Below are positions 4,005 through 43,305 of a DNA stretch of 53,752 nucleotides, one piece after another. Position numbers and translations under genes: made by a program. The notes beneath the pieces are model-generated. The model worked only from the letters and a program-made list of their open reading frames with translations, made no database searches and was not told where the DNA came from. Within the stretch, counting starts at the first letter, position 1. Every line of letters begins with the position of its first letter. This DNA comes from Phycisphaerae bacterium. GTDB lineage: Bacteria > Planctomycetota > Phycisphaerae > Sedimentisphaerales > Anaerobacaceae. The DNA lies in NCBI GenBank assembly GCA_028714255.1, contig JAQTMR010000014.1, positions 1 through 53,752 on the forward strand, given 5' to 3'.

Positions 4005-4985
4005 TTGAAAAACGCTTTAACCGTTTTCGCGGCCGTGCTGATGATTATTCCCGCAGGATGTTTGCCGACAGTCGGAGGAGAAAAATCAACGCTGCTGACC
4101 GTGGATTTCCAGCAGGGCCGGACTCTGCAGTATAAATTCGTCTCCAGCAGGGACATCGAGGTTGACTGGGCAATGGCGACCAACAACAACGCTAAAAAAG
4201 GCGGCAGCAAGGTCGATAAATCCTCCGAGTTAATGGAGATGGTCGTGGCCTACACGCCTGTCGAAGTGGCCCCCTACGGCCTTACAACCATCGAAGCAAC
4301 CTGCAAATCGGTAAAAACATCAGGAAAAGGCCGAGCGGGTACTACTGGAAACGCCGTAGAAACTCTTTCAGGGAAAAGCTTCACGTTCACCATTGATGCT
4401 GCCGGCAGGATTGAGGATTATTCACAATTAGAGAAGTTAATCAAAGAGGCCGGCGAAAAAGCCTTCCGGCCGGAAGGCAAGGCAGGAAGAATTAAAGAAC
4501 CTGATATGATAAGCGATTTTATCGCTACGCAATGGTTCCTGTGGGATTCGGTCTCCAGTATAAAAAAAGCCGCCAAAGGTGTCCGCATAGGACAAAGCTG
4601 GAAGTCTGAACTTTCCATTCCGACACCGATGATAATACGAAAAGCAAGAAACGTTACCTATACGCTCGATGAAGTCCGCCAAACCGAAAAAGGGCAAATC
4701 GCCGTGATACGCAGTTCTTACTCACCTGCCGAGTCTGTCCCCGCCAGTTGGCCGAAACCCTACTCCGGCAGCTTCCAAATGAGCGGCAGGTTCGGGTTCC
4801 TGACGAACTATAGATTTATAGATTTACAGGGTCAGGGTGAGGAACTGTTCAATATCGACGCCGGCCGAACCGAGAAATACAGTCAGCAATACAAGGTACA
4901 GTTCGACGCTTCTTTCCCGATGGGTATTAATATCAGGCCCAAAATAACTATCGAGCAAAATTTGACAATGGAGCTTATCGAATAA
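4005..4985 (+). CDS. Lipoprotein of unknown function, second of a tandem pair
   Basis: About 326 residues. The open frame begins at 3966 inside the previous gene, but an AAAGGAG site at 3994-4000 lies just before a TTG at 4005. That start gives MKNALTVFAAVLMIIPAGC, a clean lipoprotein signal peptide with lipobox IPAGC. Starting at 4005 also avoids overlap with the upstream gene. The mature part is beta-rich and aligns by eye with the gene before it: a FTIDAAGRIEDYS-like segment matches IKIAPTGEVVEVVD, and GQSWKS matches GDNWSS. No catalytic motif was found. It is probably an outer- or inner-membrane lipoprotein acting with its paralogue. Confidence 0.8.
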   Translation: MKNALTVFAAVLMIIPAGCLPTVGGEKSTLLTVDFQQGRTLQYKFVSSRDIEVDWAMATNNNAKKGGSKVDKSSELMEMVVAYTPVEVAPYGLTTIEATCKSVKTSGKGRAGTTGNAVETLSGKSFTFTIDAAGRIEDYSQLEKLIKEAGEKAFRPEGKAGRIKEPDMISDFIATQWFLWDSVSSIKKAAKGVRIGQSWKSELSIPTPMIIRKARNVTYTLDEVRQTEKGQIAVIRSSYSPAESVPASWPKPYSGSFQMSGRFGFLTNYRFIDLQGQGEELFNIDAGRTEKYSQQYKVQFDASFPMGINIRPKITIEQNLTMELIE

Positions 4986-5792: not shown

Positions 5793-6665
5793 TTATGAAC
5801 GATATTTTTTCGATTGCTTAAAGGATTCTCGACCATACCGGATCCCTTCAACAATATTTCCTAATAACAATTTTATCAAATTATCAAGCTCGGTTCCACT
5901 TTTATAATCCGCCTTAGCAATAAAATCTACCCTGTTGGCTTTTAATAACTCCTTACATGTTCTCTTGCCGGGCAAGCTATGAGATTTATAAACAGCAATA
6001 GCATATCCGCCATTTTTTCTGATTACTGTCATACATGGAACATCTGTTAAGCCATCACCAATGTACATAATATTTTGAAACGGTATAGGCCTCAAAGGCA
6101 TAGGCATATGCAAATTAATGTTCTCATTCAAGTTTTCTTTACCTTTATTAATTCTAAAAATGAACTGGGTTTTTAAAGTATCGTTCACTATTACATTCGG
6201 GAAAGTGGCTGCGCCATATTCATCATAATAATATTCTGAAGCAAATACTTTATAAAAATATTTGGCTATGGCGGAACCTGATATTATCTCCTTTAAGCCT
6301 GCTGAAATTATGTAATGTCTAAGCTCTATACTTTTGCCAAATTTTCCATCAACATAATTGTTTATTCTTTCAAAATATGTCTGGACACCTGGAAAATAAT
6401 TGATTTTTTTAGCCAATTCCCCTAATCTTTGCGCAGTAACCGGAAAATGCTTAGACTTGGATTTTTCAAGCATCAAACGCATGTAAGTCACAATCGCCTC
6501 ACCATTCGTTCGTGCCGACTCTTCATTCACTTGACTCCAAAACTTCCCGCCATCCTTGATTCCAAGTTCAGGCAAAACGGTATATTCCTGCATGGGCTGT
6601 GGAGTCAGCGTGCCATCGAAGTCATAAACAACTGCAACAACATTATGCTTAAACGCTTTGCTCAT
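5793..6665 (-). CDS. HAD-superfamily phosphatase-like protein
   Basis: About 290 residues from the ATG at 6665; the frame is open to 6764 but the extension has no better start and precedes the HAD core. Motif I is YDFDGTLTP (nucleophile and acid Asp about residues 15 and 17), motif II is ISAG, and motif IV is GDGLTDVPCM with the metal-binding Asp pair. This fits a haloacid-dehalogenase-like phosphohydrolase with an inserted helical cap; the substrate is unknown. The gene is AT-richer than the housekeeping genes around it, has a small basic ORF downstream, and is divergent from pgpA. Confidence 0.78.
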   Translation of the reverse strand: MSKAFKHNVVAVVYDFDGTLTPQPMQEYTVLPELGIKDGGKFWSQVNEESARTNGEAIVTYMRLMLEKSKSKHFPVTAQRLGELAKKINYFPGVQTYFERINNYVDGKFGKSIELRHYIISAGLKEIISGSAIAKYFYKVFASEYYYDEYGAATFPNVIVNDTLKTQFIFRINKGKENLNENINLHMPMPLRPIPFQNIMYIGDGLTDVPCMTVIRKNGGYAIAVYKSHSLPGKRTCKELLKANRVDFIAKADYKSGTELDNLIKLLLGNIVEGIRYGRESFKQSKKYRS

Positions 6666-21895: not shown

Positions 21896-22452
21896 TTGCC
21901 TGCCCAGCCTATATTCAATTTAACAAAAATATGAAACCATACTTCCAACCAACTAAATATCAAAAACGCATGACTAACCCTGCGATGCTTCCTCCCAAAA
22001 GTTGCTCAATCAATTGTCCCCTAAATCTCCCTATCCGTCCATCAAAAACTCCGTGTAAATCCGTGCTAATCCGTGGTTAATTTTTCTCTGCGTTCTCCGC
22101 GCACTCTGCGGTAAAATTTCCGTCGGCGAGATACCCTTCACGCTTCACAAGATACAACTTGTTCGTTTCGCACAATTCGCGCAGGGGGGGTGCAAAATCG
22201 TTGTAAATTTGGCGCTAGTTTTGCAAATTTAGCACAAGTTTGGACATAGTTTGTGTAAATTTGTGTAAGTCTTTGCACGTTTCACAGCGCGAACTTGCGC
22301 AAATGATGCTACCCTATTTTTACCCAAATACCCAGCTTAACAACACTGCTATGACAATTTCTGCTGTAATTAGCCTCTGCAAGCCGAAAATAAACTCTGG
22401 TAAACCCCTTTTAGGTTTTGTAATCGATTTTGTATAACTATATTATAGATAA
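21896..22452. other. 557-base region without a recognised gene
   Basis: Between the TIR gene and ftsW. It contains, at 22049-22116, an ATCCGTG-type unit followed by a CACAGAG/GCGGAG-type unit. A run of GTAAATTTG/GTTTGTGTAA-like words follows near 22196-22275. Short open frames here look random. An ftsW promoter must lie in it or upstream; no strong sigma-70 box was identified. Confidence 0.6.
22049..22116 (+). repeat. Composite ATCCGTG and GCGGAG-type repeat
   Basis: Positions 22049-22080 hold three CCGTG words spaced as in the repeats at 37487-37509. Positions 22085-22116 hold a TCTCTGCG...CTCTGCGG unit like those at 38702-38728. Two repeat families are fused in one place. Confidence 0.65.
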
Positions 22453-36346: not shown

Positions 36347-36400
36347 CTTCGATACCTTATCAAAATCAGATACAGATTTACACCGTTTTATTTTTTGAAA

Positions 36401-36423
36401 TTAGACACGGATTTACACGGATT
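36401..36423 (+). repeat. Left inverted repeat of cassette 1
   Basis: A 23-base sequence, TTAGACACGG then ATTTACACGG then ATT, that is an exact reverse complement of 37487-37509. It is 54 bases upstream of cysS and 24 bases past the end of the 188-residue gene. Confidence 0.85.
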
Positions 36424-36447
36424 TAAATTGTATTTTATTATTCCATT

Positions 36448-37014
36448 TTAACTTTGTTTTGCAATATCTCTGATATCTTCAACAAATTTTTTAATATACT
36501 TTATATCGAACTCTTGGAGACAAACTTTGACAGGGTAGTTAGAAGTCACAGATAAGGACAATGGAATATATCTTTCCTTCACCATTAATTTGTAGTCATC
36601 TTGACATAACTTGATGGCGCTTATGAGCCAATCATAGGAAAAATCCAGAAAATTCTTTGAAAATATGTTTCCCTCTTTATCTTTGCAGTCATTGTAAATA
36701 TCGCTATAAATTTGCAATCTTAAATAGCACAAATCTAATAGCTCGCTGGATATTTCACTTTGTAGTTTTTTAAGATTTCTTTCAAAAAATATTTGCCTGA
36801 TATTTGGATTCGATGAATTCTGGAGCAAAAAATCCGCTCTAAACAAAAGATAAAGAGCAAGTTCTAATTTGCAAGCATGTTCAAAAGCCACACCTTTTTT
36901 GCTATAGATTTCCTTTAATGCTCTGTAGTATTTTTGAAAAATATCATAAAATCTATCATCAGAGATAATATTTTTACCTCTGTAAGCAATCTTTCTGAAA
37001 AAGCCAAAAACCAT
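36448..37014 (-). CDS. Predicted helical protein of unknown function (cassette 1)
   Basis: 188 residues, AT-rich, with no signal or membrane segment. The sequence reads as a bundle of helices (FYDIFQKYYRALKEIYSKKG, LELALYLLFRADFLLQNS, NLKKLQSEISSELLDLCYLRL, FSYDWLISAIKLCQDDYKL). I do not recognise a family. AAAGG stands 8 bases before the ATG. It is the second gene of a two-gene unit, 68 bases behind the GxxExxY gene, with a repeat copy at 37043-37074 in between. The function is unknown; it could be a partner or target-recognition protein for the GxxExxY protein. Confidence 0.6.
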   Translation of the reverse strand: MVFGFFRKIAYRGKNIISDDRFYDIFQKYYRALKEIYSKKGVAFEHACKLELALYLLFRADFLLQNSSNPNIRQIFFERNLKKLQSEISSELLDLCYLRLQIYSDIYNDCKDKEGNIFSKNFLDFSYDWLISAIKLCQDDYKLMVKERYIPLSLSVTSNYPVKVCLQEFDIKYIKKFVEDIRDIAKQS

Positions 37015-37042
37015 TTTCGCCTTTTTGAAATATTCTCAAGCC

Positions 37043-37074
37043 GTGTTAATCTGCGTTAATCCGTGTCTAAAAAT
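37043..37074 (+). repeat. Internal repeat of cassette 1
   Basis: A 32-base unit that differs at only three positions from 37481-37512 and has the same orientation. It lies between the two cassette genes. Confidence 0.8.
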
Positions 37075-37082
37075 ATTTAATA

Positions 37083-37472
37083 TCAATCCTCATCAGCATC
37101 GTAACCAAAGACGCGGCGTTTTACTTTGACGGATTGTCCGAAGTTAATCAACAAGCCAACGTGCAATCCTGTCGCCTTTAAATAGTTTACCAACTGCACT
37201 TCGTGAATCGGCTCAAGGTCGCTTACGGCCTTAGTCTCGACAATTATTTTATCTTCTATAATCATATCAGCATAATAATCACCCACTGTTTTCCCGTGGT
37301 AGAGCACTCTAAGCGGAACTTCAACAGCACATTTTATGCCGACCTCTCCCAATTCAATCGCAAGGGCATTTTTATATACTTTCTCGACGAAGCCATACCC
37401 AAGCTCCTTATGTACCGTAAAAGCCGCAGCTATGATTTTCTCTGATAGTTCTTTATGTTTTAGTACTACCAT
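37083..37472 (-). CDS. GxxExxY protein (PD-(D/E)XK-like) (cassette 1)
   Basis: 129 residues. The family name motif is G27-F28-V29-E30-K31-V32-Y33. The later strand YYADMIIEDKIIVETKAV carries D69, E79 and K81, a plausible D-(D/E)-x-K nuclease active site. The N-terminus ELSEKIIAAAFTVHKELG is the usual helix. GxxExxY proteins (PF13366-like) have no established function; the nuclease fold is known from the family. It ends at a DEDADE-like tail and is followed by the 188-residue gene. No clear ribosome site. Confidence 0.85.
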   Translation of the reverse strand: MVVLKHKELSEKIIAAAFTVHKELGYGFVEKVYKNALAIELGEVGIKCAVEVPLRVLYHGKTVGDYYADMIIEDKIIVETKAVSDLEPIHEVQLVNYLKATGLHVGLLINFGQSVKVKRRVFGYDADED

Positions 37473-37486
37473 ACTGCAACAGTGTT

Positions 37487-37509
37487 AATCCGTGTAAATC
37501 CGTGTCTAA
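37487..37509 (+). repeat. Right inverted repeat of cassette 1
   Basis: A 23-base exact inverted match of 36401-36423, located 15 bases upstream of the GxxExxY gene start and 26 bases past the ispF stop. Confidence 0.85.
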
Positions 37510-37534
37510 AAATCTTCGGTGTTAAACCGCGTCT

Positions 37535-38047
37535 CTAAAGTGTTCTTCTGAATTTCTTTTTCAAAAGGGCTATTGCGGTCGCCGCTATGGCGTCACCTGC
37601 GCCGACGTCGCCGAAGCCGTTGTCTGTTTTTGCCTTGACGTTCACAACACCAAAATCAATTCCCAAAAGCTCGGCAACGCATCTTTTCATTTGTCCCTTG
37701 AACGGCTCCAGACGCGGCTGGTCCGCATGTATTATCACATCGATGTTGGCTATCTCCCAGTCTTTTTCTTCGAGCCTTTCTTTGACAATAACCAAAAGCT
37801 CCCTGCTGTCGGCGTCTTTCCACCTTTGGTCGTCATCGGGAAACAATGTCCCTATATCACCCATCGCCGCTGCGCCGAGCAGGGCATCTATAACTGCGTG
37901 CAAACCGACATCGCCGTCGCTGTGCCCGGCCAATCCGGTCGGATGGGGGACATGAATGCCGCAGAGCATAAGCTTTCTGCCGACAACCAGCTCGTGGATA
38001 TCGGTGCCGATTCCGCTGCGATATTCGGGCTTGGGGCGCTCAATCAC
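37535..38047 (-). CDS. ispF: 2-C-methyl-D-erythritol 2,4-cyclodiphosphate synthase
   Basis: 170 residues. Closes the cyclic diphosphate in the MEP isoprenoid route, feeding uppS. Motifs: SGIGTDIHEL with the zinc Asp and His, GHSDGDVGLHAVIDALLGAAAMGDIGTLFPD, and AKTDNGFGDVGAGDAIAATA near the end. The ATG overlaps the hisB stop, so it is co-translated with hisB. Confidence 0.96.
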   Translation of the reverse strand: MIERPKPEYRSGIGTDIHELVVGRKLMLCGIHVPHPTGLAGHSDGDVGLHAVIDALLGAAAMGDIGTLFPDDDQRWKDADSRELLVIVKERLEEKDWEIANIDVIIHADQPRLEPFKGQMKRCVAELLGIDFGVVNVKAKTDNGFGDVGAGDAIAATAIALLKKKFRRTL

Positions 38048-38628: not shown

Positions 38629-38653
38629 AAAAATGTCCTCATTGTGTTTTTTC

Positions 38654-38728
38654 ACCGCCGAGATCGCAGAGAACGCTGAGTTTTTTTATATTCAACTATT
38701 TCTCTGCGTGCTCCGCGTGCCCTGCGGT
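38654..38728. repeat. Empty inverted repeat pair between hisC and hisB
   Basis: Positions 38654-38680 (ACCGCCGAGATCGCAGAGAA to CGCTGAG) and 38702-38728 are inverted copies (about 20 of 27 bases alike), with 21 bases between them. No gene lies inside. They are of the CACAGAG/GCGGAG family seen around cassette 2. The outer end of the right copy supplies the hisC stop codon. Confidence 0.65.
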
Positions 38729-39774
38729 TAATCCTTTACAATTTCTTTTAATGCCGAAAGTAGTTTATCATTTTGTTCGGTCGTGCCAATAGTGATTCTC
38801 AATTTATCTTCGAGTCCCGTGCAGGTGAAATATCTGACGAAGATACTTCGCCTTGTTAATTTTTTATAAATTTCCGCCGCCCCGCCGGTTTTGCATTTTG
38901 CCAGGACGAAGTTCGAGCTGCTGAGCGGAACATCAAAACCGAGGCCTCTTAGCTGCTCGGTCAGTCTTTTGCGTTCGGCTTTTATTTTTTCGACCGTCTT
39001 TCGCAGATAATCCTGGTCGCGGATAGCCTCGGCGGCAACGGTGATAGCAACCGCATCGACATTGTAGGAATCCTTGAGCTTACCAAGGTCTTTTATTAAA
39101 GCCGGCTGTGCAATTGCGTATCCGAATCGAATCCCTGCGAGCGAATATCCCTTACTCATCGAGCGCAGTATAATGACATTATCGAAATCCCTGACCAAAG
39201 CTATGCAATTTTTCTCCGCGAAATCAACGTAGGCCTCATCAATCAATAATACGCCGGTGATTTCATCAGCCAGGCTGGCCAGTTCGCTGACATTTATAAA
39301 GCTGCCGCTCGGCGCATTCGGATTGCAGACAATTGTTAAGGCTGCGCCGCTGCCGGCTAACTTGGCAGGCAGATTAAATTCGTTGTCGAACGGAAATTCA
39401 ATGGCTTTGCAATTCTGCAATTTGGCCAATACCGGATAAAGTGTATAACTCGGAACCGGGTAGGCAACGGGCCGATTCTCATCACAAAAAGCCTGAAAAG
39501 CCATTCTTAGCAGTTCGTCTCCGCCATTGCAGCACATAATATAATCCGGCTCAACGCCATTAACTTCCGCAGCCGCCTGGCGAAAGACGCTTCCCGTCGG
39601 GTCAGGATACCGGCGAAGCTGCTCGGGACTTATCTCGGACAAAACCATGGCCACATTAGGCGAGGGCGGATAGGGATTCTCATTGGTATTGAGCTTTACT
39701 ACATTGCTGTCTTTCGGCTGAAAGCCCGGCTCATACCCCTCTGCTTTTTCGATGTTTTCTCTGAAATAGCCCAT
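38728..39774 (-). CDS. hisC: Histidinol-phosphate aminotransferase
   Basis: 348 residues. PLP enzyme (class I/II aminotransferase fold) that transaminates imidazole acetol-phosphate. KLNTNENPYPPSP near residue 27, LRRYPDPTG (about 55), CNPNAPSG, LLIDEAYVDFAE, and ILRSMSKGYSLAGIRFGY with the PLP lysine. The stop TAA at 38728-38730 sits at the edge of the repeat noted above. First gene of a hisC-hisB-ispF unit. Confidence 0.94.
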   Translation of the reverse strand: MGYFRENIEKAEGYEPGFQPKDSNVVKLNTNENPYPPSPNVAMVLSEISPEQLRRYPDPTGSVFRQAAAEVNGVEPDYIMCCNGGDELLRMAFQAFCDENRPVAYPVPSYTLYPVLAKLQNCKAIEFPFDNEFNLPAKLAGSGAALTIVCNPNAPSGSFINVSELASLADEITGVLLIDEAYVDFAEKNCIALVRDFDNVIILRSMSKGYSLAGIRFGYAIAQPALIKDLGKLKDSYNVDAVAITVAAEAIRDQDYLRKTVEKIKAERKRLTEQLRGLGFDVPLSSSNFVLAKCKTGGAAEIYKKLTRRSIFVRYFTCTGLEDKLRITIGTTEQNDKLLSALKEIVKD

Positions 39775-39955
39775 AACAATTGATTAGCAATTATTGATAA
39801 ATGATATTATCCGCAGATTATACGGATATTCCGCTGAAAGTGAAAGGGAGATTTTTACAGATAATCGTCCCAAAGCCTGTGGGCCCGAAATAACTCTGGC
39901 GTGCTGTACGGAAGGTTAGGACGAACTGTGCCGACGGAATGATTTCCTGATTATA

Positions 39956-40255
39956 TCAGGAGAGTTCCTGGGCCCCATCAGAAAAACAGTGGGAATTTAA
40001 CAAACAAGAACTCGGCTGTGTATCCGATTTGGAGACAACTACGACCTCCATCAATTCGCTAAGAGACATATTAAAGTAATCTTCCTGCTGGTTCAACGCA
40101 TTCGTATAAGCTGTCGGATGGGTTACTATACGAACTATTATCTGATGCTCCATGTAAAATTGCACATTAACGGCACAAACTAACAGGCATAAAAAGGTAA
40201 GTGCGATAACCATATGAATCTGGGTGTTTTTTTGTTTTCCTTTTATCCCGAACAT
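39956..40255 (-). CDS. Small exported protein resembling the start of a TonB-dependent receptor
   Basis: About 99 residues from the ATG at 40255, with AGGAGG 8 bases upstream. The N-terminus is basic and then hydrophobic (MVIALTFLCLLVCAVNVQ, about 15-32). A later stretch FNMSLSELMEVVVVSKS resembles the segment (SLEELMNVEV-like) found near the N-terminus of TonB-dependent receptors; the barrel and plug are missing. It may be a relic of a truncated receptor or a short protein of its own. The strong ribosome site argues that it is translated. Confidence 0.5.
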   Translation of the reverse strand: MFGIKGKQKNTQIHMVIALTFLCLLVCAVNVQFYMEHQIIVRIVTHPTAYTNALNQQEDYFNMSLSELMEVVVVSKSDTQPSSCLLNSHCFSDGAQELS

Positions 40256-40516
40256 CACCGAATCCTCCTGGAACAATAAGCCGTAAAAATCTTCTACCTA
40301 AAATATACAAAACATATCCTCTGAAACAAAATTTGATAATATCATCGAGAATAATATCAACCTCCATAATGTCACTACCTGTTATTTCTCCCCATTAAAT
40401 AGCAAAAACGCCTGTCTTATTGGACCCTTAGGCTTGCTTTGTGGGAAATTTGATAATTCTAAAAGATTTGTATGTTATCGAACCTGAAAATTGGCTGCAC
40501 GGCCTGCTTTTTCGAG

Positions 40517-41386
40517 CTATTTTTTGCAGTAGTCAATGAGCCTTGCGATTTCACGCCGAAGGTCCCTTCGGTGGACAATCATATCGATAAAGCCGTGCTC
40601 AAGCATAAACTCGGCCGTCTGAAATCCCTCCGGCAGTTCGACTTTTATGGTCTCGGCAATGGTTCGCCGGCCGGCAAAGCCAATCATAGCGCCGGGTTCA
40701 GCTATTATACAATCACCCAACATCGCAAAGCTCGCGGTAACCCCGCCGGTAGTAGGGTCGGTCAGGACTGAAATGAAAAGTCCGCCGGCATCATCGTATT
40801 TAGCCAATGCTGCGCTGGTCTTAGCCATCTGGCCGAGCGAAACAACGCCTTCGTGCATTCTCGCCCCGCCGGAGCAGCTAACCACTATTAGGGGCAGATT
40901 TTCCTCCATCGCCTTATCCACTGCTGCGCAAAATTTTTCGCCGACGACAGAACCCATAGAGCCCATCAGAAAATTCGGTTCCATCACGCCGAGAATAACG
41001 CCTCTTCCCTTGATAAAGGCCTTGCCGATTCGTATAGCTTCTTTGACGCCACTTTTTTCTTCATCGGCCTTGAGACGTTCTTTATAAGTAGTGCCCCTGA
41101 ACTTAAAGGCAAGCGGGTCATCAGTCGTCATGTCACTTAGGACTTCCTGAAAGGAACCCTCGTCAACAAGATACTTAATCCGAATCTCGGCCCCGATACG
41201 AAAATGATGACTGCACTCCGGGCAGATGTTCATATTCTGCTCGACAGCGCTTTTATAGAGCATATGCTCGCAGGCCGGACATCGCATCCAAAGCCCTTCG
41301 GGCATATCTCTTTTGGGCTTCAGTGAGAAGCCGTCCCACTTTTTTTTGGTCGGTTTTGCCATAGTTATATTATTATTGGTGTGCAT
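40517..41386 (-). CDS. accD: Acetyl-CoA carboxylase carboxyltransferase subunit beta
   Basis: 289 residues. With AccA it transfers carboxyl groups from biotin to acetyl-CoA, giving malonyl-CoA. The N-terminal zinc ribbon is C36-x2-C39 and C55-x2-C58. The catalytic part has IVVSCSGGARMHEGVVSLGQMAKTSAAL, LTDPTTGGVTASFAMLGD and MIGFAGRRTIAETI. A second ATG at 41362 may be the true start; neither has a good ribosome site. It follows rpe on the same strand. Confidence 0.96.
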   Translation of the reverse strand: MHTNNNITMAKPTKKKWDGFSLKPKRDMPEGLWMRCPACEHMLYKSAVEQNMNICPECSHHFRIGAEIRIKYLVDEGSFQEVLSDMTTDDPLAFKFRGTTYKERLKADEEKSGVKEAIRIGKAFIKGRGVILGVMEPNFLMGSMGSVVGEKFCAAVDKAMEENLPLIVVSCSGGARMHEGVVSLGQMAKTSAALAKYDDAGGLFISVLTDPTTGGVTASFAMLGDCIIAEPGAMIGFAGRRTIAETIKVELPEGFQTAEFMLEHGFIDMIVHRRDLRREIARLIDYCKK

Positions 41387-41419: not shown

Positions 41420-42097
41420 TCACCTTTTGCAGGCCTGCCGAATGGCCTCTATCGCAGCGATACGGTCTGGCTTTGAAAATATTGCGTTGCCGGCTACGAA
41501 AGTATCGCCGCCGTAGGAAACCGCCAACGGTGCGGTTTCAACGCTTATCCCGCCATCGACCTCCACGCGAATATCAGGGCCCACAATCTCCCTGACCTTA
41601 ATAATTTTCTTCGCCGCCTCCGGCATGAACTTCTGCGCGCCGAAACCCGGATGAACCGTCATCACTAAAATCATATCACAAAGACAGGCGAACTTTTCTA
41701 TCGCGTCCACGGGCGTTTCAGGATTCAGACACACGCCTGCCGAGACGCCCATATCGTGAAGCATCTTTATCAGGTCAGCCGGGTTTTTCTCTACCTCGAT
41801 ATGGAACGTTAAATGGTTTGCACCTGCTTCGATGAAAGGACGAGCGTACTTTCGCGGGTCGGTAATCATCAGGTGGCAATCGAAGAAAAGACTGCTGTAC
41901 TTGCGAAGTTTGGCGATTACCGGTGGACCCATTGTAATATTGTTGACGAAGTGGCCGTCCATAACATCAAGATGCACCATTTTCACGCCTGCTTTTTCAA
42001 TAACAGCAAGCTCGTCGGCCAATCGCGCAAAGTCCGCGCTCAATATCGACGGCGCAATCTCGATTGTTCCAGCTTTGGGTAATTTTCTGTCAGCCAC
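41420..42097 (-). CDS. rpe: Ribulose-phosphate 3-epimerase
   Basis: 225 residues. Interconverts ribulose-5-P and xylulose-5-P. The (beta/alpha)8 barrel has APSILSADFARLADEL, MVHLDVMDGHFVNNITMGPPV, LMITDPRKY, MILVMTVHPGFGAQKF and RVEVDGGISVETAP. It lies between accD and cassette 2. Confidence 0.96.
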   Translation of the reverse strand: MADRKLPKAGTIEIAPSILSADFARLADELAVIEKAGVKMVHLDVMDGHFVNNITMGPPVIAKLRKYSSLFFDCHLMITDPRKYARPFIEAGANHLTFHIEVEKNPADLIKMLHDMGVSAGVCLNPETPVDAIEKFACLCDMILVMTVHPGFGAQKFMPEAAKKIIKVREIVGPDIRVEVDGGISVETAPLAVSYGGDTFVAGNAIFSKPDRIAAIEAIRQACKR

Positions 42098-42122
42098 AGA
42101 GTTTTTTCCTTAAATTATTTTT

Positions 42123-42151
42123 AGCCACAGAGAACACAGAGGTCGCAGAGA
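42123..42151 (+). repeat. Left inverted repeat of cassette 2
   Basis: A 29-base CACAGAG-type unit that is an inverted match (25 of 29) of 43277-43305. It starts 25 bases upstream of the rpe start codon. Confidence 0.8.
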
Positions 42152-42152
42152 A

Positions 42153-42902
42153 TCATTTTTTCATTTCCTTAATTATAATTCGATATTCACTTTTTAGATG
42201 TTCATATGGCCAGCCGTAAAATTGTCTGACAAGCATATTAATATCACAAGAAATACTCAATAACGTTCCAAGTTCGTCAGTTTGTTCAAAATCATTTTTG
42301 TAAAAAATAGTTTTTTCGTTGCTATCGTAAACAACCAAATCTCTGACAATACTCATGTCTAAATGCACTGCCCTATTATAATACAGATAATATTTGGCGT
42401 ATATTTTAATCCAGTCTTTATCTTGCTCTTTGGCAAGCTCTTCAAATATATCTCTTTTCCCAAGTAGGCATTTAATACCACGTTTTTGATATGTAGCGAC
42501 TTGTTCTTCAAGTTTTCTAATATCATTTGTATATTGGTTGATATCCAAAATTTCAAGAAGTTTTTTATGCTCTTTCGCGCGCAAAAAATCCCATTTTTGA
42601 AATCTGTTATGAACCTGCTGTTTTTTATCATCTTCTTCTCTGTGAGGTGCAATGCACCACATTAGAACAGCATAAATTTCTAAAAGAACTCTTAGCAAGG
42701 CCTGAGCAGGTATAATATGCTTATTCTTCATTAAGTCTGATACCGCCAGAGAATATTTGCGGCAAGCCAGTAAAATTGCGGCCACTATCAAGTCGACTTC
42801 GTTCCGTTTTGATGTTTTAAGTTTAACAAAAGTTTCATCAAACCATTGGTTAATTTTATTTGATACAATATTTATATTCTCTGTGTTCTCTGTGGCCTTC
42901 AT
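42153..42902 (-). CDS. Predicted helical protein, DUF5677-like (cassette 2)
   Basis: 249 residues, AT-rich, no signal or membrane segment. It reads as long helices: VDLIVAAILLACRKYSLAVSDLMKNKHIIPAQALLRVLLEIYAVLMWCIA (about 40-90) and NRAVHLDMSIVRDLVVY (about 175-191). The L-R-x-L-L-E-x-x-A-x-x-x-W pattern resembles DUF5677, a family of unknown function; that is a weak match. The first codons, MKATENTENI, are read from a CACAGAG-type repeat. The ATG overlaps the stop of the GxxExxY gene (ATGA). Confidence 0.6.
   Translation of the reverse strand: MKATENTENINIVSNKINQWFDETFVKLKTSKRNEVDLIVAAILLACRKYSLAVSDLMKNKHIIPAQALLRVLLEIYAVLMWCIAPHREEDDKKQQVHNRFQKWDFLRAKEHKKLLEILDINQYTNDIRKLEEQVATYQKRGIKCLLGKRDIFEELAKEQDKDWIKIYAKYYLYYNRAVHLDMSIVRDLVVYDSNEKTIFYKNDFEQTDELGTLLSISCDINMLVRQFYGWPYEHLKSEYRIIIKEMKK
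42877..42897 (+). repeat. Internal repeat of cassette 2
   Basis: A 21-base CACAGAG-type unit in the same orientation as 43277-43305. On the minus strand it lies inside the first codons of the 249-residue gene. Confidence 0.8.
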
Positions 42903-43261
42903 AAAAATACTCGTTTTATGCCATCAACCAAGCGTTTTTCTCCGAAGTTTATTATCAAGCCTCTTTTGAGGTTCGTAGCTTTAAGATAGGAGAGAGTTTG
43001 TGCCAATGCGACTTCCGGCATTTTAGAAAGCGATTTAACTTCTATGACCACTTCATTTTCGACAAGCAAATCAAGTTTCTGGCCTTTAACAGTATGCCCT
43101 TTATAAATAATATCGCATTCAACTTGTTTTGGGTATTTGATGCTGCGAAGGTCAAATTCACAACATAGAGCTTCTTCGTATATTGACTCAAGCAAACCGG
43201 GGCCGAGTATGCTATGTACTTCAATCGCAGCCCCGATTATCTTTTCTGTCAACTCATCCAT
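42899..43261 (-). CDS. GxxExxY protein (PD-(D/E)XK-like) (cassette 2)
   Basis: 120 residues. Motif G22-L23-L24-E25-S26-I27-Y28; putative nuclease residues D64 in KLDLLVENE, then E74 and K76 in VVIEVKSL. The N-terminal helix DELTEKIIGAAIEVHSILG and the tail LKRGLIINFGEKRL are family hallmarks. It is clearly different from the copy at 37083 (a different subgroup), so it is not a recent duplicate. It is coupled to the downstream 249-residue gene by an ATGA overlap. Confidence 0.86.
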   Translation of the reverse strand: MDELTEKIIGAAIEVHSILGPGLLESIYEEALCCEFDLRSIKYPKQVECDIIYKGHTVKGQKLDLLVENEVVIEVKSLSKMPEVALAQTLSYLKATNLKRGLIINFGEKRLVDGIKRVFL

Positions 43262-43276
43262 GACATTCTTTTTATA

Positions 43277-43305
43277 TCTCTGTGTCCTCTGTGACCTCTG
43301 TGGCT
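43277..43305 (+). repeat. Right inverted repeat of cassette 2
   Basis: A 29-base unit, the inverted partner of 42123-42151. It begins 15 bases upstream of the GxxExxY gene start and ends one base before the pgk stop codon. Confidence 0.8.

Follow-up and report, generated by a model that had tools for sequence, protein, structure and literature searches.

Between ispF and cysS of a planctomycete genome (G000; Planctomycetota, 2.41 Mb), a gene of the GxxExxY family and an open reading frame of 188 codons (ORF188) are enclosed by inverted copies of a short repeat, which raises the question of what kind of unit these repeats delimit. The window analysed here is the whole 53,752-nt stretch of DNA that contains this locus (Table 1). 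An earlier note on the window had described a two-gene cassette with exact 23-bp inverted ends, and sequence comparison bore out its coordinates: positions 36401-36423 and 37487-37509 are identical as inverted repeats, which are 31 nt long at 90% identity; a third copy does lie between the genes, at 37048-37070, with three differences (87% complementary to 36401-36423); and GxxExxY and ORF188 are the only genes between the ends, where no transposase was found. The element ends are double, a degenerate copy of the repeat lying outside each exact 23-mer.

Table 1. Elements, genes and arrays of the window (positions within the window; array direction given as strand).
Feature	Position	Strand	Remarks
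GxxExxY gene, 129 aa	37083..37472	-	TIGR04256, PF13366; predicted PD-(D/E)XK nuclease
Inner left end	37479..37514	-	array pointing at the gene; includes exact 23-mer 37487-37509
Outer left end	about 37514..37537	-	degenerate second copy, right after the ispF stop
Middle array, between GxxExxY and ORF188	37037..37070	-	same direction as left end; '> gx > cargo <' grammar
ORF188	36448..37014	-	188-aa orphan helical cargo gene
Inner right end	36401..36431	+	inverted copy of left end
Outer right end	about 36365..36390	+	degenerate second copy
Block missing in same-genus G001	36349..37535		cysS and ispF alignments 16 bp apart there
Two solo arrays	22049..22110	-	unlike unit types, head to tail
Gene-less inverted array pair, hisB-hisC gap	38649..38732		CGCNGAG units; absent from G001
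Second GxxExxY gene, 120 aa, pgk-rpe gap	42899..43261	-	AG-type clade
Second element, left end	43278..43302	-	CACAGAG units
Second element, middle array	42879..42894	-	
Second element, cargo ORF249, 249 aa	42153..42902	-	DUF5677 protein; PF18928 E 1.4e-10
Second element, right end	42126..42150	+	

Comparison with relatives supports the view that these repeats are real element ends. The block is missing between cysS and ispF in two genomes of the same genus, where the two genes are separated by 21 bp (G001) and 15 bp (G002). In G001, which is about 80% identical at the nucleotide level, the absence is clean, and the gaps are too diverged for junctions to be placed at base level. The earlier note had expected such an absence to be accompanied by a target-site duplication, and this part did not hold: short direct repeats (2-9 bp) beside the ends of 83 elements were no commoner than in mismatched pairs.

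The reading of 36401-37509 as one two-gene cassette also had to be given up. ORF188 is present in G000 alone among the 61 genomes searched. Related GxxExxY genes lie 3' of ispF in three other genomes of the same family (G009, G019 and G027) and in one from a different family of the order (G055); all four share the double left end at this site, and the first three have the double right end as well. In G027 (L073), GxxExxY stands between a simple pair of ends without cargo; in G009 and G019 it is accompanied by a cargo gene other than ORF188, and a truncated gene of that same type is found in G055 (L281). Because the same GxxExxY follows ispF in four other genera, with other cargo or with none, GxxExxY and ORF188 are, by this comparison, separate modules. 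Given that GxxExxY occupies the site in several genera and ORF188 occurs in one genome, the element after ispF would be old or faithful to its site, and its cargo recent. Presence in several genera and absence from G001 and G002 can also be read as loss. Between G000 and G055, which share the site across two families, the GxxExxY proteins are 76.7% identical and the IspF proteins only 60.0%, which suggests lateral movement at this one site; within the family, the GxxExxY and IspF identities to G000 are 72.7 and 75.9% (G009), 74.6 and 71.4% (G019), and 70.5 and 69.4% (G027). Profile searches placed ORF188 in no family above cut-off; weak matches to UpxZ and Ribul_P_3_epim, both under cut-off, were put aside.

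The repeat itself is far from confined to the locus. The notion that the 23-mer is private to the cassette was dropped: ACACGGATTNACACGGATT at up to 3 mismatches has 127 matches in the G000 genome, as compared to 3 for the reversed pattern. Nor can the repeats be cassette-specific ends, as had been supposed, since hundreds of gene-less arrays exist; the stricter pattern CRCNGATTNACRCNGATT has 63 matches in the G000 genome and identifies 802 arrays across the 61 genomes of relatives, with no match for the reversed control in either search. Same-genus G001 has only 7 strict-pattern matches against the 63 of G000, indicating that array copy number changes fast. The arrays are built of 8-11-bp units, the main types being CRCNGATTNA (that of the window's 23-mer), CRCNGAGNN and CNCNAAG; TTAGACACGGATTTACACGGATT is not self-complementary, and the array repeat is non-palindromic.

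Intergenic regions are mosaics of these arrays: in 258 kb, 166 of 204 arrays are intergenic or at gene edges. Most are unpaired, and adjacent arrays run head to tail (84 versus 2, any type), including those of different type within 60 bp of one another (same direction, 68 versus 1). Gene-less inverted pairs also occur; the pair in the hisB-hisC gap (about 75-85 bp) is MITE-like, a short unit without a gene whose inverted ends match those of a putatively autonomous element. Several contig ends of G000 (contigs C3, C5, C10, C12 and C39) coincide with arrays or lie close to them, and arrays may therefore interrupt assemblies and be under-counted. At another locus (L115), identical array contexts at 4404-4432 and 6461-6489 share one direction at a spacing of 2,057 bp, and the stretch between them looks like a tandem duplication.

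We examined the relation of the arrays to GxxExxY with 166 distinct GxxExxY genes, drawn from the relatives and from a set of 80 loci spread over many bacterial phyla and the Methanosarcinales, by comparing the 200 bp upstream with the 200 bp downstream of each gene for an inverted or direct array (score of at least 14). Matched arrays flank 67% of 164 GxxExxY genes, as compared to 4.6% of 304 similar-sized other ORFs at the same loci and about 2-3% of flanks paired across different loci (~2% inverted, ~1% direct). The arrays sit close to the start and stop codons of GxxExxY, and their units are oriented inward to the gene (CACGGAT, 52 versus 13 opposite). The earlier note had held that random combinations of genes and repeats in related genomes would speak against the repeats as ends; other combinations do occur, but they are non-random, the arrays being strictly inward around GxxExxY.

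The unit type of the arrays follows the protein. With 93 loci labelled GAT and 30 labelled AG (GAG/AAG), the label changes once on the GxxExxY tree, at a branch with support 99; 500 shuffles of the labels averaged 27 changes, and none of the 500 was as low as one. This single change suggests that the ends travel and change with the protein, and the match of subclade to unit type makes it unlikely that GxxExxY is a passenger moved in trans by an unrelated transposase, as the earlier note had considered. Across the 43 of 61 genomes that could be typed well enough, the correlations within a class are rho 0.59 (GAT-type genes and GAT arrays) and rho 0.56 (AG-type genes and AG arrays), and the cross-class correlations are lower (rho 0.30 and 0.36), all without correction for phylogeny; the ratio of GAT to AG arrays differs between genomes with GAT-type genes only (n = 14) and those with AG-type genes only (n = 4; p = 0.022). 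Some genomes, among them G017 with 55 GAT and 93 AG arrays, are rich in arrays and have no detected GxxExxY gene; the assemblies are incomplete. On the strength of the matched-flank enrichment and of a unit type that tracks the GxxExxY tree, we take the arrays to be the ends of the GxxExxY element, and GxxExxY is probably their cognate enzyme; unit type and protein clade could also have changed together through shared descent of gene and ends instead of recognition.

The protein has the hallmarks of a nuclease. The window's GxxExxY scores 141.8 bits against TIGR04256 (cut-off 35) and 140.7 against PF13366 (PDDEXK_3; cut-off 22), and G27xxE30xxY33, D69, E79xK81 and Q93 are invariant in 76 sequences, with Y97 nearly so. 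Foldseek searches with an AlphaFold2 model (pLDDT 92.7) returned as nearest solved folds 4ic1 (SSO0001, Cas4-type), LHK-Exo (an alkaline exonuclease), lambda exonuclease and Hjc (a Holliday-junction resolvase); the match to 4ic1 (E 6.8e-05, Z 9.6) is the sole one clear of the tool's background. The modelled fold together with the D...ExK residues places GxxExxY in the PD-(D/E)XK superfamily, as a predicted nuclease.

Writing the direction of an array as > or < and GxxExxY as gx, the commonest grammar is '> gx <', with GxxExxY alone inside about 0.5 kb (77 of 180 loci). Another 21 of the 180 read '> gx >', and 17 of these are closed by '<' past a stretch of cargo; a recognisable array is absent at 40, about a fifth. 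Cargo families recur, and cargo is swappable and often defence-like: HEPN_AbiU2-like proteins (one with E 1.5e-05, under the gathering score, and a second that is weaker) and genes with weak HNH and SIR2 matches are among them. The window contains a second element of the same architecture as the one at ispF and of another unit type, in which the first codons of ORF249 fall inside the middle array. A block comprising it (42082-43305) has no counterpart in G001, in which 29 bp separate the flanking alignments; all three window units (36401-37509, 42126-43302 and 38649-38732) are thus missing at orthologous places in that genome. The window also has a 661-bp segment with a 106-aa ORF and no recognised arrays (39857-40517), in the orthologous place of which G001 has ~45 bp. 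Elsewhere, an inverted array pair without GxxExxY (L110, 597-2586) surrounds a gene that resembles, by eye, a DpnI-type restriction enzyme.

GxxExxY genes recur within genomes, with 1 to 16 matches per genome in 14 genomes that belong to other orders than the window and were picked as carriers. The other GxxExxY genes of G000 share only about 40-55% identity with that of the window, and there is thus no sign of recent gene duplication in this genome; pairs of GxxExxY elements within one genome are at best 79-83% identical, and in one pair of same-genome paralogues (L050 and L268) DNA similarity is confined to the element. Two loci with orthologous flanks, L034 of G000 and L076 of G002, differ in which way GxxExxY faces between its arrays, a difference that is either an in-place inversion or a reinsertion. 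In Flavobacterium, GxxExxY directly follows bioF at 9 of 30 bioF loci, and the 30 bioF-bioD loci include occupied, empty and one-ended states, with no near-identical pair among them. Loci among them without GxxExxY (L344, L354, L362, L365 and L368) often carry solo CGCAAAG-type arrays just before bioD; other Flavobacterium bioF-bioD gaps hold a small conserved gene instead. A search for near-identical empty sites gave 8 scattered records among plasmids and none among phage records. Two IMG/VR viral contigs (L371 and L372) carry GxxExxY with matching inverted arrays, the unit types being GAT and AAG. In a deltaproteobacterial MAG (L178), GxxExxY lies between long direct repeats that contain arrays (score 205, ~214 bp).

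What process could have produced these patterns? We think it probable that the region is a small, widespread selfish module, a GxxExxY nuclease with inverted arrays that it likely recognises, which has no other conserved gene and spreads via break and repair. From the association, inward orientation, class match and insertion polymorphism that we observe for arrays and GxxExxY, we infer binding, cutting, mobility and a role for repair. GxxExxY would bind and break DNA at arrays, and the breaks would be repaired against other arrays by short-homology recombination, in a homing-like manner. Such array-to-array repair would spread the arrays, could exchange or add cargo beside existing ones and could invert segments between them; in the window, ORF188 would be a later gain of the old GxxExxY element that lies 3' of ispF, received between its middle array and its right end. 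This model provides the best fit to the lack of target-site duplication and of a transposase, the head-to-tail arrays, the exchange of cargo and the in-place inversion, and it also fits elements that have long stayed at one place, as on the 3' side of ispF. More tentatively, and with the balance tilting slightly against it, these elements may form a previously unrecognised mobile class in bacteria and archaea, in which a ~125-residue PD-(D/E)XK nuclease and host repair would suffice to spread array ends and shuffle small defence-like cargo. On this reading, the S23/TIGR02436 four-helix protein with its arrays of 7-bp period would found a parallel class.

The main rival to break and repair assigns GxxExxY a direct role as transposase: a compact transposon would act on iterated ends and move the whole unit without target duplication, and solo arrays and gene-less pairs would be its MITE-like offspring. 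Inverted ends that are exact over 33 bp (L177) or 46 bp (L206), the loss of similarity at the element's borders in the L050/L268 paralogues, the gene-less pair missing in G001 and the scatter of several copies over different loci of one genome are all consistent with it. We nevertheless regard it as unlikely, since target-site duplication and any DDE, HUH, tyrosine or serine recombinase are absent from the units, arrays are mostly single with a head-to-tail build-up atypical of transposons, and the elements have resided long at the same sites. Less probable again is a passive passenger, in which a different enzyme, or recombination by itself, disperses the arrays, and GxxExxY, like other small genes, is trapped between copies. 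The arrays are many times more numerous than GxxExxY genes, they also bound other genes (L103; array pairs), and Y1_Tnp genes (PF01797) are present in most relatives; against this, the flank enrichment is specific to GxxExxY, the unit type tracks its tree, and the four-helix genes of TIGR02436 have another repeat type. That nothing here is mobile, the arrays being operators or transcript ends and GxxExxY a defence or housekeeping nuclease, is very improbable, for although arrays lie near GxxExxY start and stop codons and several loci have defence-like cargo, hundreds of arrays stand apart from any GxxExxY gene, whole units are present or absent between genomes, and PADLOC gave no match for GxxExxY, ORF188 or ORF249. 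Mismatches between the arms show no G-U-compatible excess (97 to 81, p = 0.26) and hence give no hint that an RNA stem has been selected for, and the arrays had no match in Rfam.

The GxxExxY family is curated without an assigned function, and the class-matched arrays, as a candidate DNA target, allow a direct test of what it does. The arrays also suggest where the short interspersed repeats crowding the intergenic regions of such genomes come from, and how small accessory genes, frequently defence-like, are exchanged at constant positions in the chromosome. Should the nuclease drive spread by itself, these would be among the simplest mobile elements known, and the simple ~0.5 kb '> gx <' form among the smallest autonomous ones.

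Set beside known systems, GxxExxY with its arrays appears to be a very small mobile element of a kind not described before. In a body of literature with few subscription papers and no preprints, searches for GxxExxY, PF13366, TIGR04256 and PDDEXK_3 returned nothing on mobility, and those for the array sequences no description; novelty is meant relative to that literature. Insertion sequences and MITEs share the terminal inverted ends and the coexistence of gene-bearing units with gene-less pairs, but here there is no transposase of known type, no target-site duplication, and the ends consist of iterated units. PD-(D/E)XK homing endonucleases and free-standing intergenic homing genes are likewise small nuclease genes; GxxExxY resembles them in that distant genomes, of five genera, have it at one site, 3' of ispF, and in being closer than its neighbours between families, and differs in its inverted repeat ends, dispersed copies and cargo. 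Integron cassettes are promiscuous single-gene cargo arranged head to tail via short recognition sites, and in the GxxExxY unit, too, single-gene cargo is joined through short sites, albeit without an integrase.

In REP/RAYT systems (REPINs), REPs are palindromic and RAYTs are HUH/Y1 enzymes (PMC3116915, PMC2817692). As there, short extragenic repeats are dispersed, related copies flank one small gene of nuclease type with a low copy number, and paired repeats act as, or resemble, the spreading unit. By contrast, the repeat-flanked gene here is a PD-(D/E)XK GxxExxY, the unit contains no Y1/HUH RAYT (Y1_Tnp genes lie elsewhere in the genomes), in place of a palindrome the repeat is an array of 8-11-bp units, neighbouring arrays run head to tail, and cargo is carried; as enzyme and repeat both differ, the element is not a REP/RAYT member. 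The S23/IVS four-helix elements (TIGR02436), known as 23S rRNA intervening sequences (PMC4990558), are also tiny selfish one-gene elements, but the GxxExxY protein and its repeat type are unrelated to them. In G000, the TIGR02436 genes (L036-L047) have inverted arrays of ~7-bp period, with 6 of 12 matched flanks as compared to 0 of 132 mismatched ones; flanking units such as (TAAATGG)n, (TAGTTTT)n and (AATTCTA)n possibly represent a second protein-repeat partnership.
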